Source of the DNA: Rhizobiaceae bacterium
GTDB lineage: Bacteria > Pseudomonadota > Alphaproteobacteria > Rhizobiales > Rhizobiaceae
NCBI GenBank assembly: GCA_019635715.1
Contig: JAHBYY010000030.1
Span: 1 to 49,394, forward strand
Direction: 5' to 3'
DNA length: 49,394 nucleotides
A model generated the notes under the pieces. It was not told the origin of the DNA. It did not search any database and saw only the letters and a list, made by a program, of their open reading frames with translations. Each line of letters opens with the position of its first letter. The first letter of the stretch is position 1. Made by a program: the position numbers and the translations under genes. Of this stretch, positions 43,523 to 49,394 are shown one piece after another.

Positions 43523-44329
43523 CTAACCCTTGGCTGCATCTACCTTTTTCAGGAACGCGTCGAGTTCGGCCGGATCCATGCGCACGATGTGCTTCTCTTC
43601 CGGATAGGCGAGACTGTTCACGTCGGCGACGAATTCCGAGAAGGCCGCGATACGCTCCTGCTGCAGCCGGTCGTACTCCGCGGCGAAGTTGCGGTAGACC
43701 TTCGAGTGGCGCGGCATGTGCCCGCGATTGGTGCCGAGAATGTCTTCCGCGAAGAGATATTGCGCGTCGCACCCCGTGCCTGCTCCCATCGAGAGCAGGA
43801 ACAGCGACGTCCGTTTCGAGATCGCCTCGGCCACTTCCACCGGCACCACCTCGATCTCCGCGCCGAACGCCCCGGCCGCCTCCAATTGCTTGACGGCGTC
43901 GAAGATCTCCATTGCCGTGTCGGCGGTCTTGCCGACCGCCTTCCAGCCGCCGGTCCAGGTGCGCCGCGACGGAATCAGGCCGACATGGCCGATGACCGGG
44001 ATAGCCTCGTCGGCCATGCGCTTGATCGTGGCGTAGCTGGCGCTGCAATAGACCGCGTCGGCGCCCGCCCTGTACATCTTGAACGACCAGCGGACGAAGT
44101 CGTCGGCGGTTCCGATCTCGAAGAAGTTCTCGCCCGGCATCGAGAACAGGCTGGGTGCGACCTCGCGGTAGCGTGGATCCAGGATGAGTTCCGGCGGGAT
44201 CGAGACGATGTCGATGCCGGCCTTCTCGGCCGCCTCGGCCTCCTCCAGGTTCATGACGCGCAGCATGGTCAACTGGCGCTTGCCCTTGATGGCCCGCAGA
44301 TCTGCGATGGTCGGCCGTTTGCGGCTCAT
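43523..44329 (-). CDS. PanB-like protein lacking canonical metal ligands
   Basis: A 268-residue TIM barrel of the ketopantoate hydroxymethyltransferase family. The second half is clearly PanB: IPVIGHVGLIPSRRTWTGGW, QLEAAGAFGAEIEVVPVEVA (with the catalytic-region Glu of the EVVP motif) and LSMGAGTGCDAQYLFAEDILG. In the first half, the metal-site VGDS of true PanB is replaced by VSIPPE, and the KIEG lysine and glutamate by YCSAS. A true PanB reaction is therefore doubtful. It is the last gene of the MocDEF-like cluster, 28 bases after the reductase. A C1-transfer or C-C lyase role in that pathway is a guess. Confidence 0.82.
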   Translation of the reverse strand: MSRKRPTIADLRAIKGKRQLTMLRVMNLEEAEAAEKAGIDIVSIPPELILDPRYREVAPSLFSMPGENFFEIGTADDFVRWSFKMYRAGADAVYCSASYATIKRMADEAIPVIGHVGLIPSRRTWTGGWKAVGKTADTAMEIFDAVKQLEAAGAFGAEIEVVPVEVAEAISKRTSLFLLSMGAGTGCDAQYLFAEDILGTNRGHMPRHSKVYRNFAAEYDRLQQERIAAFSEFVADVNSLAYPEEKHIVRMDPAELDAFLKKVDAAKG

Positions 44330-44357
44330 CGATGGTCCTCCCTCGAACGTTCTGGAA

Positions 44358-45605
44358 TCATGCGGCCAGCAGCGCCTTCAGCCTGGTCTCCGGCGCGGCC
44401 AGCGCCTCCCGCGACGGGCTGGCCCGCCGCGCGATCAGCATCTCGGCGATCCGGATGTCGCGCGCCACGGCCGTGCCGGTTCCGATGCCGCTGGCGGCGA
44501 CCAGGCGTCCGTCGCCCGCCAGGTGGAACAGGATGAAGGCATCCGGCCCGACCTCGCGACGCACCGTGTCGCGGCCCTCGTCGGAAAGCCCGGCGATCTG
44601 CAGGCCCAGTTGGTACTGATCCGACCAGAACCACGGCACCGTCGCGTGCGGCTCGTCCTGTCCGAGCATGTTGCGCGCGGCGAGCCCCCCCTGTTCCTGC
44701 GCGTTGCGCCACGCTTCGAGGCGCACCCGGCGCCCGCCATAGACGGCGAGCGGGAAGGAGCAGCAGTCGCCGGCCGCGAAAATGTCGGGGTCGGAGCTGC
44801 GCAGGCGGGCATCGACGGCGATGCCGTTGTCGATCGCCAGCCCGGCCTCTTCGGCCAGCCCGGTGTTCGGCACCGCGCCGATGCCGATGATGCAGAGGTC
44901 GGCGGCGATGCGCTCGCCTCCGGCAAGGGCGATCTCGATCGTCTCGCCGGCCTCGGCGATCGACGCGATGCCCTGTCCGCAGACGATGCACACGCCCTGG
45001 CGCTCGTGCTCGGCGTGGACGACCGCGGCGATCTCGGCCGGCACGCCGCGCATCAGGATGCGCGGCTGCGCCTCGATCAGCGTCACCGGGCAGCCGCGTC
45101 GGCGCGCCGATGCCGCCAGTTCGAGCCCGATGAACCCGCCGCCGACGATCGCCACCCGCACCCCGGCCGCCAGATGCCGGCGGATCGCCAGCGCGTCGTC
45201 GAAGGTGCGCAGCGTCACGCAGCGCGAGCTCTCCGGAAGACCGGGCAGGCGACGCGGCGATGCGCCGGTCGCCAGCAGCAGCTTGGCGTAGGGAATGGAC
45301 GCGCCATTGTCGAGATGGACGTCATGCGCCTGCCGGTCGAGCCGCACGACGCGCGCGCCGCTCATCAGGATGATGCGGGCATCCGCCAGCTTGCGCAGGT
45401 CGGTGACGATCTTCGCCGCGGGATCGGCCTCCGAGGCCATCGCCTCCTTCGACAGCGGCGGCCGCTCATAGGGCAGATGCAGTTCCTCGCCGATGAGGGT
45501 GACGCTGCCCTGATAGCCCTGCTCGCGCAGCGCAAACGCCGCCCGGGCGCCGCATTCGCCGGCGCCGACGATCACCATGCCCGGGTCTTCCTCGGAGGAG
45601 GCCAT
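44358..45605 (-). CDS. Ferredoxin reductase, MocF-like FAD/NAD(P) oxidoreductase
   Basis: A 415-residue reductase that passes electrons from NAD(P)H to the Rieske ferredoxin. The FAD loop is MVIVGAGECGARAAFALRE, the pyridine-nucleotide loop VAIVGGGFIGLELAASARR, and the FAD-closing motif IFAAGDCCSFPL. The reductase C-terminal domain follows (VPWFWSDQYQLGLQIAG), the family pattern of BphA4/rubredoxin- and ferredoxin-reductases; WFWSDQY is diagnostic. It starts five bases after the ferredoxin stop. Confidence 0.92.
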   Translation of the reverse strand: MASSEEDPGMVIVGAGECGARAAFALREQGYQGSVTLIGEELHLPYERPPLSKEAMASEADPAAKIVTDLRKLADARIILMSGARVVRLDRQAHDVHLDNGASIPYAKLLLATGASPRRLPGLPESSRCVTLRTFDDALAIRRHLAAGVRVAIVGGGFIGLELAASARRRGCPVTLIEAQPRILMRGVPAEIAAVVHAEHERQGVCIVCGQGIASIAEAGETIEIALAGGERIAADLCIIGIGAVPNTGLAEEAGLAIDNGIAVDARLRSSDPDIFAAGDCCSFPLAVYGGRRVRLEAWRNAQEQGGLAARNMLGQDEPHATVPWFWSDQYQLGLQIAGLSDEGRDTVRREVGPDAFILFHLAGDGRLVAASGIGTGTAVARDIRIAEMLIARRASPSREALAAPETRLKALLAA

Positions 45606-45610
45606 GCCGG

Positions 45611-45925
45611 TCAATCGATCTGGATCATGACCGCGCCGGCTTCGAGCTTGACCGGATAGGTCTTGAGGTTGACGCAGACCGGCGCACCCTTGGCCGCGCC
45701 CGTCTTGTAGTTGAAGCGGCCATTGTGCTTCGGGCACTCGATGATGTCGTCCATCACCAGCCCGTTCGCCAGATGGACTTTTTCGTGCGTGCACAGGCCG
45801 TCGGTGGCGAAATACTCGTCATCCGGCGACCTGTAGATCGCGAAGGTGCGGCTGCCATGGTCGAAGCGGATGACATCCTCCTCGTCCACGTCGTCTGCCT
45901 CGCAGGCCTTGATCCATTCCGCCAT
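45611..45925 (-). CDS. MocE-type Rieske [2Fe-2S] ferredoxin
   Basis: A 104-residue electron carrier. The Rieske ligands C45 and H47 (GLCTHEKVHL) and C64 and H67 (IECPKHNGRF) are in correct spacing. The sequence ends in KLEAGAVMIQID. No signal peptide, so cytosolic. It stands between the membrane oxygenase and the ferredoxin reductase, the same order as MocD-MocE-MocF in rhizopine catabolism. Confidence 0.93.
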   Translation of the reverse strand: MAEWIKACEADDVDEEDVIRFDHGSRTFAIYRSPDDEYFATDGLCTHEKVHLANGLVMDDIIECPKHNGRFNYKTGAAKGAPVCVNLKTYPVKLEAGAVMIQID

Positions 45926-48372: not shown

Positions 48373-48396
48373 GGCACGTCCAGTTCCATTCCCGTC

Positions 48397-49173
48397 TCAG
48401 TGGTCGACCGCGGCTCGGAGTTCTTCCTCGCTCATGCCGGTGATGACCTCTTCGACCTTGCTGACCGTGGTGGTCTTCGGGTCGATGTCGTCCGCGACCA
48501 CCTTGCCCTGGCGCATCACCACGATCCGGTCGACGACCTGGAAGACGTGGTGGATGTTGTGGGCGATGAAGATGCAGGAATGGCCGGTATCGCGGGCATT
48601 GCGCACGAAGCGCAGCACCCCCTGGGTTTCCGCCACGCCCAGATTGTTGGTCGGCTCGTCGAGGATGATCAGGTCGCTGTGGAAATGCATGGCGCGCGCG
48701 ATCGCCACGGCCTGCCGCTCGCCGCCCGACAGGGAGCCGATCGGCGTGGTCGGCGGGATGTTCTTGGTGATGCCGACGCGCTTCAGCAGATCGCGCGCCA
48801 CCTGTTCCATTGCCGCCTGGTCCATGCGGTTGAAGATGCCGGCGCCCTTGATCGGCTCGCGCCCGAGGAAGAGGTTGCGGGCGATGGAAAGCTGCGTCAC
48901 CAGCGCCGAGTCCTGATAGATTGTCTCGATGCCGTTGGTGATCGCGTCGGTCGTGCTCTTGATCTCGACCTTCCTGCCCTTGATGAAGATGTCGCCGCCG
49001 GTCGGCTGCACGGCGCCGGAGAGCACCTTGATCAGCGTCGACTTGCCGGCGCCGTTGTCGCCGAGCAGGCCGACGATCTCGTTGCGGTAGACGCGGAACG
49101 TCACGCCGTCGAGCGCCCGCACGCGGCCGTAGTCCTTGGTGATGTTGTCCATGCGGACGAGTTCTTCGGCCAT
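48397..49173 (-). CDS. Sugar ABC transporter ATPase, FrcA-like
   Basis: A 258-residue ABC ATPase. Walker A is LGDNGAGKSTLIKVLSG, the signature LSGGERQAVAIARAM, then LIILDEPTNNLG and the switch His in FIAHNIHH. It has one ATPase domain, unlike the two-domain RbsA/XylG proteins, so it resembles FrcA of rhizobial fructose-type importers, acting as a homodimer. It starts four bases before the permease stop. The solute-binding protein would lie outside the window. Confidence 0.92.
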   Translation of the reverse strand: MAEELVRMDNITKDYGRVRALDGVTFRVYRNEIVGLLGDNGAGKSTLIKVLSGAVQPTGGDIFIKGRKVEIKSTTDAITNGIETIYQDSALVTQLSIARNLFLGREPIKGAGIFNRMDQAAMEQVARDLLKRVGITKNIPPTTPIGSLSGGERQAVAIARAMHFHSDLIILDEPTNNLGVAETQGVLRFVRNARDTGHSCIFIAHNIHHVFQVVDRIVVMRQGKVVADDIDPKTTTVSKVEEVITGMSEEELRAAVDH

Positions 49174-49177
49174 CGCC

Positions 49178-49394
49178 TCAATTCCCCGACTGGTGGCGGC
49201 GCTCGAGGCCGGAATGCAGGGCCATCATGCCGAGGATGATCGCGCCGATGAAGATGTTGTAGGCCAGTCCCGGCACGCCGATCATGACGATGCCGTTGCG
49301 CATGATGCGCAGGATGAAGATGCCGATCACCGTGCCGATGATCGTGCCGCGCCCGCCGGTCAGCGCCGTGCCGCCGATCACCACCATGGCGATC
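49178..49394 (-). CDS. Sugar ABC transporter permease, C-terminal part
   Basis: The last 71 residues of an RbsC/FrcC-type permease, cut by the window end; the reading frame continues off the edge, so the M at 49387 is internal. The family motif VIGGTALTGGRGTIIGTVIG is followed by two hydrophobic segments (IFILRIMRNGIVMIGVP, NIFIGAIILGMMAL) and a basic tail. Its partner ATPase follows after four bases. Confidence 0.9.
   Translation of the reverse strand, partial: IAMVVIGGTALTGGRGTIIGTVIGIFILRIMRNGIVMIGVPGLAYNIFIGAIILGMMALHSGLERRHQSGN

Follow-up and report, generated by a model that had tools for sequence, protein, structure and literature searches.

What does a rhizobial operon act on when it joins a MocDEF-like O-demethylase to a sugar importer, and why does that operon end with a relative of PanB (ketopantoate hydroxymethyltransferase)? 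Both questions are raised by the right end of a 49,394-nucleotide stretch of DNA from a Rhizobiaceae bacterium (GenBank assembly GCA_019635715.1, contig JAHBYY010000030.1). This stretch, hereafter the window, is the entire contig C76 of a genome of 4.57 Mb in 151 contigs that is 85% complete. All seven genes that an earlier note on this DNA had proposed were found, every one on the minus strand between positions 43523 and 49394. In our reading, to which we give a probability of roughly 0.6, the operon serves to take up an O-methylated sugar or cyclitol and remove its methyl group, and the PanB-like enzyme passes the one-carbon unit to tetrahydrofolate (THF). Listed from the contig end, the genes are as follows.

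49178..49393, minus strand: CUT2-type sugar permease, of which the contig keeps only the C-terminal end (71 residues); 67% identical to residues 270–339 of a Mesorhizobium ciceri permease (L029; BPD_transp_2).
48397..49173, minus strand: single-domain ATP-binding cassette (ABC) importer ATPase; ABC_tran, 113.7 bits, with Walker A and LSGG motifs.
47191..48372, minus strand: DUF4432 protein; PF14486, 317 bits, 75–79% identical where found in relatives.
45987..47084, minus strand: MocD-like membrane di-iron oxygenase, the proposed O-demethylase; PF00487, 118.5 bits (cut-off 29.7).
45611..45925, minus strand: MocE-family Rieske ferredoxin; TIGR02377, 187 bits against a curated cut-off of 136.15, with a CxH...CxxH pair.
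44358..45605, minus strand: MocF-like flavin adenine dinucleotide/nicotinamide adenine dinucleotide (FAD/NAD) ferredoxin reductase; Pyr_redox_2 (237 bits) and Reductase_C, with two GxGxxG-type motifs.
43523..44329, minus strand: PanB-like protein, a proposed folate-linked hydroxymethyl (formaldehyde) transfer enzyme; PF02548 Pantoate_transf, 129 bits.

The coordinates leave intergenic gaps of 4–106 bases. Scores far over the Pfam cut-offs, together with recurrence in relatives, show that the co-occurrence of these genes is not due to chance. Pfam and NCBIfam models and motifs confirm the gene list of the earlier note (permease end, ATPase, DUF4432 protein, di-iron enzyme with three His boxes, Rieske ferredoxin, reductase and PanB-like protein); that note had assigned no role to the PanB-like protein, which is found here to be the most constant partner of the oxygenase. 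The closest NCBIfam models to the ATPase are those of sugar (xylose, arabinose) ATPases, and it falls below cut-off in all 25 best matches listed. The DUF4432 protein is one that we take to be sugar mutarotase-like.

In rhizopine use, MocDEF (a membrane oxygenase, a Rieske ferredoxin and a reductase) removes the O-methyl group of 3-O-methyl-scyllo-inosamine, and a 1998 paper by Bahar and colleagues reportedly names in its title a ferredoxin oxygenase complex that takes part in the catabolism of rhizopine. The window oxygenase is 64–67% identical to the MocD of two true moc clusters, and with this identity the earlier proposal that the cluster imports and demethylates a methylated sugar or cyclitol appears to hold. 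Its His boxes (HECGH at 99, HARHH at 135 and HVEHH at 285) have His residues that are invariant across 27 aligned sequences, the window's included. In a phylogenetic tree, the moc-cluster MocD proteins fall in a five-row rhizobial group (support 97/83) and the window protein is placed apart from them, in a group of 22 rows (100/100). One 49-row MocD clade takes in both groups and leaves outside the genome's two other MocD homologues and one from Ruegeria (100/100). The possibility raised in the earlier note that the oxygenase might group with true lipid desaturases was not borne out by model scores: the DesA and DesB models (NF052548, NF052549) give 17 and 29 bits against a cut-off of 500, the DesB score being the highest of any NCBIfam model, and it is on these curated scores that the rejection of a lipid desaturase rests, as the tree held no characterised one. 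A quite improbable alternative is that the enzyme hydroxylates or oxidises its substrate, be it a cyclitol, a sugar or a lipid, and leaves any methyl group in place. In its favour, PF00487 includes desaturases and hydroxylases, and besides DesB the weak profile matches comprise one carotene hydroxylase and one arginine hydroxylase; the close identity to MocD of moc clusters argues otherwise, as do the recurring formyl-THF and methylene-THF neighbour genes described below, which are best explained by a reaction that releases a one-carbon unit. Comparison of MocD with PDB sequences gave no match at E up to 1. A fold search gave two matches at E ≤1e-3, both chains of chloroplast motor complexes, followed by human stearoyl-CoA desaturase at E 0.11; the structure model is only moderate (predicted local distance difference test score 76), and these matches were not used for any conclusion.

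The two other MocD homologues of this genome have neighbourhoods of their own. One, a second FA_desaturase-family membrane oxygenase 29% identical to MocD (L110, G000:C78:40000-48720, at 4700-7880), has a Formyl_trans_N protein on one side and, on the other, a protein with the C-terminal domain of methylene-THF reductase (DUF5981), folate one-carbon genes beside a different branch of the oxygenase. The third homologue (29%; L109, G000:C75:98000-112000, about 6384-8600) is followed by a MocF-like reductase (41%), and upstream of it are regions matched by the permease and ATPase queries of the sugar ABC importer.

The PanB-like protein departs from PanB at positions expected to matter for catalysis. 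It scores 93.7 bits against the TIGR00222 panB model, below the cut-off of 207.55. The residues Asp45, Asp84, Lys112 and Glu114 (E. coli numbering) are presumably the Mg and ketoacid contacts of PanB; at Asp45, Asp84, Glu114 and Lys112 the window protein aligns Pro, Gly, Ser and Tyr, respectively. Among 75 PanB-like rows, the window's included, Asp occurs in four at site 45 and in none at site 84, Lys in none at site 112, and site 114 is mainly Ser or Ala. A separate, true PanB on contig C97 of the same genome (284.6 bits, 41% identical to E. coli PanB) keeps all four sites. Likeness to PanB persists in the fold, as found by structural search, and in the retained His136 and Glu181; the family gains a Glu at 179. 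An ordinary PanB is ruled out by the lost residues and by the separate true PanB, and with the presumed Mg and ketoacid contacts lost, the step catalysed should differ from that of PanB. In the public records consulted, such proteins carry the label 3-methyl-2-oxobutanoate hydroxymethyltransferase. The structural matches next below PanB include class II aldolases and 2-methylisocitrate lyases, which gives some ground for regarding the protein as an aldolase or lyase that acts on the demethylated sugar or keto-inositol, like other TIM-barrel (triosephosphate isomerase barrel) relatives of the fold, and handles no one-carbon unit; retention of His136 and Glu181 with loss of the presumed Mg ligands likewise suggests a changed reaction. 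We consider this rather unlikely, because the PanB-like gene accompanies two oxygenase families and varied sugar genes, a distribution that fits one-carbon work better than a single fixed sugar, and because PurU and FolD follow it in part of the loci.

The association with oxygenases was surveyed in 394 genomes of the family, with MocD-clade genes defined by at least 446 bits and PanB-like genes by at least 132 bits; counts of weaker matches and of PurU are lower bounds. The matches listed comprise 130 MocD-clade genes in 114 genomes and at least 142 PanB-like genes. A PanB-like gene lies within 5 kb of MocD on the same strand for 98 of the 130 (96 downstream, 2 upstream). Conversely, 96 of 105 strong PanB-like genes (≥290 bits) are so linked, and 92 of the 93 genomes with a strong PanB-like gene also have a MocD-clade gene. 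PanB-like genes of intermediate similarity (190–300 bits) have another partner: 16 of 20 have on their own strand, no more than 10 kb away, a membrane oxygenase from the PF04116 FA_hydroxylase family, as detected by a single query at E 1e-40 that may miss more distant oxygenases; three of the other four are beside MocD and one is beside neither oxygenase. Of the 42 close PF04116 homologues (≥365 bits), just 14 lie 10 kb or less from a PanB-like gene. In six PF04116-linked loci (L117, L120, L121, L125-L127), MocE, MocF, LacI, a sugar ABC importer and an IolG-like dehydrogenase recur in varying sets, sometimes with PurU or FolD, and Bradyrhizobium CCBAU 53351 holds together a PanB-like protein, a 'sterol desaturase' (PF04116), a Rieske protein, a TIM barrel and a reductase. 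We tentatively propose, while judging it somewhat short of an even chance, that the PanB-like proteins form a family of dedicated enzymes, independent of metal, which put hydroxymethyl or formaldehyde from membrane O-demethylases directly on THF, work with two oxygenase families and are present, though unnamed, in the rhizopine pathway.

PurU and FolD together convert methylene-THF to formate and THF, and PanB normally uses methylene-THF. Of 103 strong PanB-like genes (>300 bits), at least 18 have PurU directly after them, among the 150 PurU matches listed. On Mesorhizobium huakuii pMHb the order is mocD, mocE, mocF, PanB-like, purU, folD; in Rhizobium rosettiformans it is mocD, mocE, mocF, PanB-like, iolG, with purU beyond a divergent regulator and importer genes. 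Both true moc clusters, on plasmids of Sinorhizobium meliloti RCAM1115 and Rhizobium lentis BLR27, continue past mocDEF with a PanB-like gene and purU, and that of R. lentis also has an unannotated FolD match. The uncatalysed condensation of formaldehyde with THF has been described as too slow to support growth, an uncharacterised enzyme being one that cannot be ruled out and PanB a named candidate, with deletion of E. coli panB and ltaE without effect there (PMC7073904, as far as accessible). The accessible part of another study argues for a side activity of PanB in which methylene-THF is cleaved (PMC4814558). By comparison, cluster II for degradation of tris(hydroxymethyl)aminomethane, as described in the part of PMC10848231 available, likewise places a hydroxymethyl-transferring enzyme beside FolD and PurU, a pair proposed there to recycle THF; its methylserine hydroxymethyltransferase, however, is of the serine hydroxymethyltransferase type, not PanB-like, and its one-carbon donor is 2-hydroxymethylserine. 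In the open-access literature searched, no mention was found of a PanB-like gene as a named part of moc, and no paper was found on pinitol demethylation in rhizobia, on a mocE Rieske ferredoxin with a desaturase or on formyltetrahydrofolate deformylase with Rieske demethylation; the papers listed for DUF4432 had no bearing on the subject.

Gene neighbourhoods were compared around MocD in the best 80 of 89 relatives, mostly Mesorhizobium, with annotated plasmid loci added. This gave 88 loci with MocD at ≥50% identity, 70 of them with full flanks (≥8 kb upstream, ≥5 kb downstream); a gene counted as present when tblastn matched it at E 1e-15 on either strand and no more than 8.5 kb from MocD, a test that small or distant genes can escape. 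Within the 70 full-flank loci, matches near MocD number 65 for the PanB-like gene, 62 for MocE, 57 each for the Gfo/Idh/MocA dehydrogenase, the TIM barrel and the ATPase, 47 for the permease, 43 for the binding protein, 37 for DUF4432, 18 for MocF, 17 for LacI, 12 for PurU and 2 for MocR. ATPase, DUF4432, MocD, MocE and PanB-like genes occur together with no MocF nearby in 39 of the 88 loci; two further loci have the same five plus MocF (in L049 as a single run of genes; in L011 with MocF belonging to a second set on the opposite strand). The ATPase is 54–57% identical where found in Mesorhizobium-type loci and 87% in L011. The DUF4432 gene and importer thus mark a Mesorhizobium-type version, usually without MocF, and the PanB-like gene accompanies MocD nearly everywhere, even in eight loci without detected MocE or MocF (e.g., Rhodobacterales L071, L076 and L077). 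A separate operon for the ABC genes, which the earlier note had named as a result that would speak against its reading, did not appear, as DUF4432, permease and ATPase matches are all near MocD in 32 of the 70 loci. In the comparison of gene order that it had recommended, linkage of oxygenase and ABC genes recurs in the Mesorhizobium type, where the importer genes and DUF4432 stand directly before MocD; in other relatives the importer is different or absent.

The missing upstream part of the operon was traced to contig C125, found by searching with a relative's binding protein. This contig ends inside a permease, and its last open frame matches residues 23–268, and the frame at the window's edge residues 270–339, of one M. 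ciceri permease. Because the frames cover adjoining residues of the same protein, the two contigs very likely abut, with C125 continuing the window's operon in the same genome. Its gene order is a LacI-type regulator on the opposite strand, a CUT1 importer (SBP_bac_1, two BPD_transp_1 and two ATPases), and then matches to an M. ciceri Gfo/Idh/MocA dehydrogenase (78% identical), a xylose-isomerase-like TIM barrel (93%), a Peripla_BP_4 binding protein (49%) and the permease (53%); Pfam names of these last four are those of the matched M. ciceri proteins. Extension to the right, which the earlier note had recommended for identifying the binding protein and any regulator, thus yields a Peripla_BP_4 protein and a LacI regulator. 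The same note had missed in the window the usual moc genes for inosamine dehydrogenation; to this should be added that the Gfo/Idh/MocA dehydrogenase and the TIM barrel lie just upstream on C125.

These parts suggest the following sequence of events. The CUT2 importer, and perhaps also the upstream CUT1 importer, would bring the substrate in, to judge from their domains. The MocF-like reductase would take electrons from NAD(P)H and hand them, by way of the MocE ferredoxin, to the MocD di-iron oxygenase. By analogy with rhizopine MocDEF, this oxygenase would hydroxylate the O-methyl group to give a hemiacetal that collapses to an alcohol and formaldehyde. The PanB-like enzyme could then move the one-carbon unit, as free formaldehyde or directly from the hemiacetal, onto THF to form methylene-THF, from which FolD and then PurU or Fhs would release formate and free THF. 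The Gfo/Idh/MocA dehydrogenase, TIM barrel and DUF4432 proteins are predicted to process the demethylated sugar, and LacI to regulate the operon. A PanB relative tied to demethylases, and partly to PurU and FolD, makes the question of enzymatic condensation of formaldehyde with THF testable on a named gene. If the proposal is true, the PanB-like family is the folate counterpart of formaldehyde-activating enzyme, the rhizopine pathway gains a PanB-like gene and purU, and the common 3-methyl-2-oxobutanoate hydroxymethyltransferase label on such proteins is corrected.

Several observations weigh against this interpretation. In the family survey, 32 of the 130 MocD-clade genes lack a same-strand PanB-like neighbour at a distance of 5 kb or less, 22 of 114 MocD genomes have no strong PanB-like gene, and at least 19 weak PanB-like genes (<190 bits) are not linked to any match of the PF04116 query; in L118, L119 and L122, a weaker PanB-like subtype, 62–63% identical to the Bradyrhizobium copy, is beside ribokinase and sugar ABC genes. 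The PanB-like gene is unmatched in five of the 70 full-flank loci (L053, L069, L080, L082, L089), and betaproteobacterial MocD loci (51% and 37%) have MocE with no PanB-like match within about 9 kb. Most loci come from closely related rhizobia, so that the counts are not independent events. FolD is in only two of the MocD loci scanned. No PurU over cut-off, and none at E 1e-60, was found in this genome, nor any at E 1e-60 in three same-genus genomes searched. Finally, the presence of a DUF4432 protein along with two importers may be a sign that the substrate is an aldose and not a cyclitol. Fhs and FolD are present elsewhere in this genome; since it has both and no PurU over cut-off, the one-carbon exit here may be FolD and then Fhs.

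The substrate is probably not rhizopine. The parts of PMC10107442 available list the moc units as mocDEF, mocR, mocBA and mocC, and in its main text the words pantoate, panB, purU, formyltetrahydrofolate and hydroxymethyl are all absent; PMC6668481, in the portion available, concerns rhizopine synthesis (MosDEF), not demethylation. The two plasmid moc clusters have the recognisable rhizopine set (MocC/IolE-like and MocA-like genes, a MocB-like binding protein, a MocR-like pyridoxal phosphate (PLP) regulator and mocDEF). The window shares with mocRABCDEF of Sinorhizobium and Rhizobium the MocD type, the MocE-family ferredoxin, the MocF-type reductase and their order, and the upstream binding protein (L108:10728-11657) has, at E 1e-10, a single NCBIfam match, to the model for rhizopine binding proteins (NF052284). 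That this is nevertheless an ordinary moc-type cluster for catabolism of 3-O-methyl-scyllo-inosamine seems highly improbable: the binding protein match is 63 bits, far under the cut-off of 420; LacI stands in place of MocR; the upstream dehydrogenase (L108:8173-9507) scores 90 bits against the IolG (TIGR04380) cut-off of 355 and so is not IolG by curated score; and MocD belongs to its separate 22-row clade. A CUT2 importer and DUF4432 are further differences. No MocR-type (PLP aminotransferase) regulator was found among the 12 open reading frames scanned with Pfam, six at the right end of the window and six on C125, a scan short of the whole genome. The IolG cut-off is passed by dehydrogenases of three related clusters (388–433 bits); of the PF04116-linked loci, both that were tested (L117, L126) pass it. 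Judged by these domain and model assignments, the sister clusters with IolG have methylated inositols as putative substrates, while for the operon described here a methylated sugar may be suggested by DUF4432, the pair of importers and a dehydrogenase that is not IolG.

Other arrangements of these genes were seen in passing. In S. meliloti 1021, SMb20817-SMb20820 are LacI, mocD, mocE and mocF according to the accessible part of PMC11387232, so that LacI adjoins mocDEF there. The S. meliloti R14 pSymB copy (L093) has the same order, is taken as the same locus and has a PanB-like match after mocDEF; it differs from the window in that no CUT2 or DUF4432 match was found nearby. In the S. meliloti RCAM1115 moc cluster (L092), mocD is unannotated and appears as two tblastn pieces at about 8001-8894, and the deposited sequence may hold a frameshift. 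The betaproteobacterial loci (L128 and L129, from Caballeronia and Paraburkholderia) consist of LacI, MocD and MocE. L119 has a MocD-like (38%), MocE and MocF set about 9 kb from its PanB-like gene. In R. johnstonii 3841 pRL11 (L009) and R. leguminosarum RCAM1365 (L010), a block of LacI, TIM barrel, mocDEF and PanB-like genes lies between cobalamin genes and nadABC.

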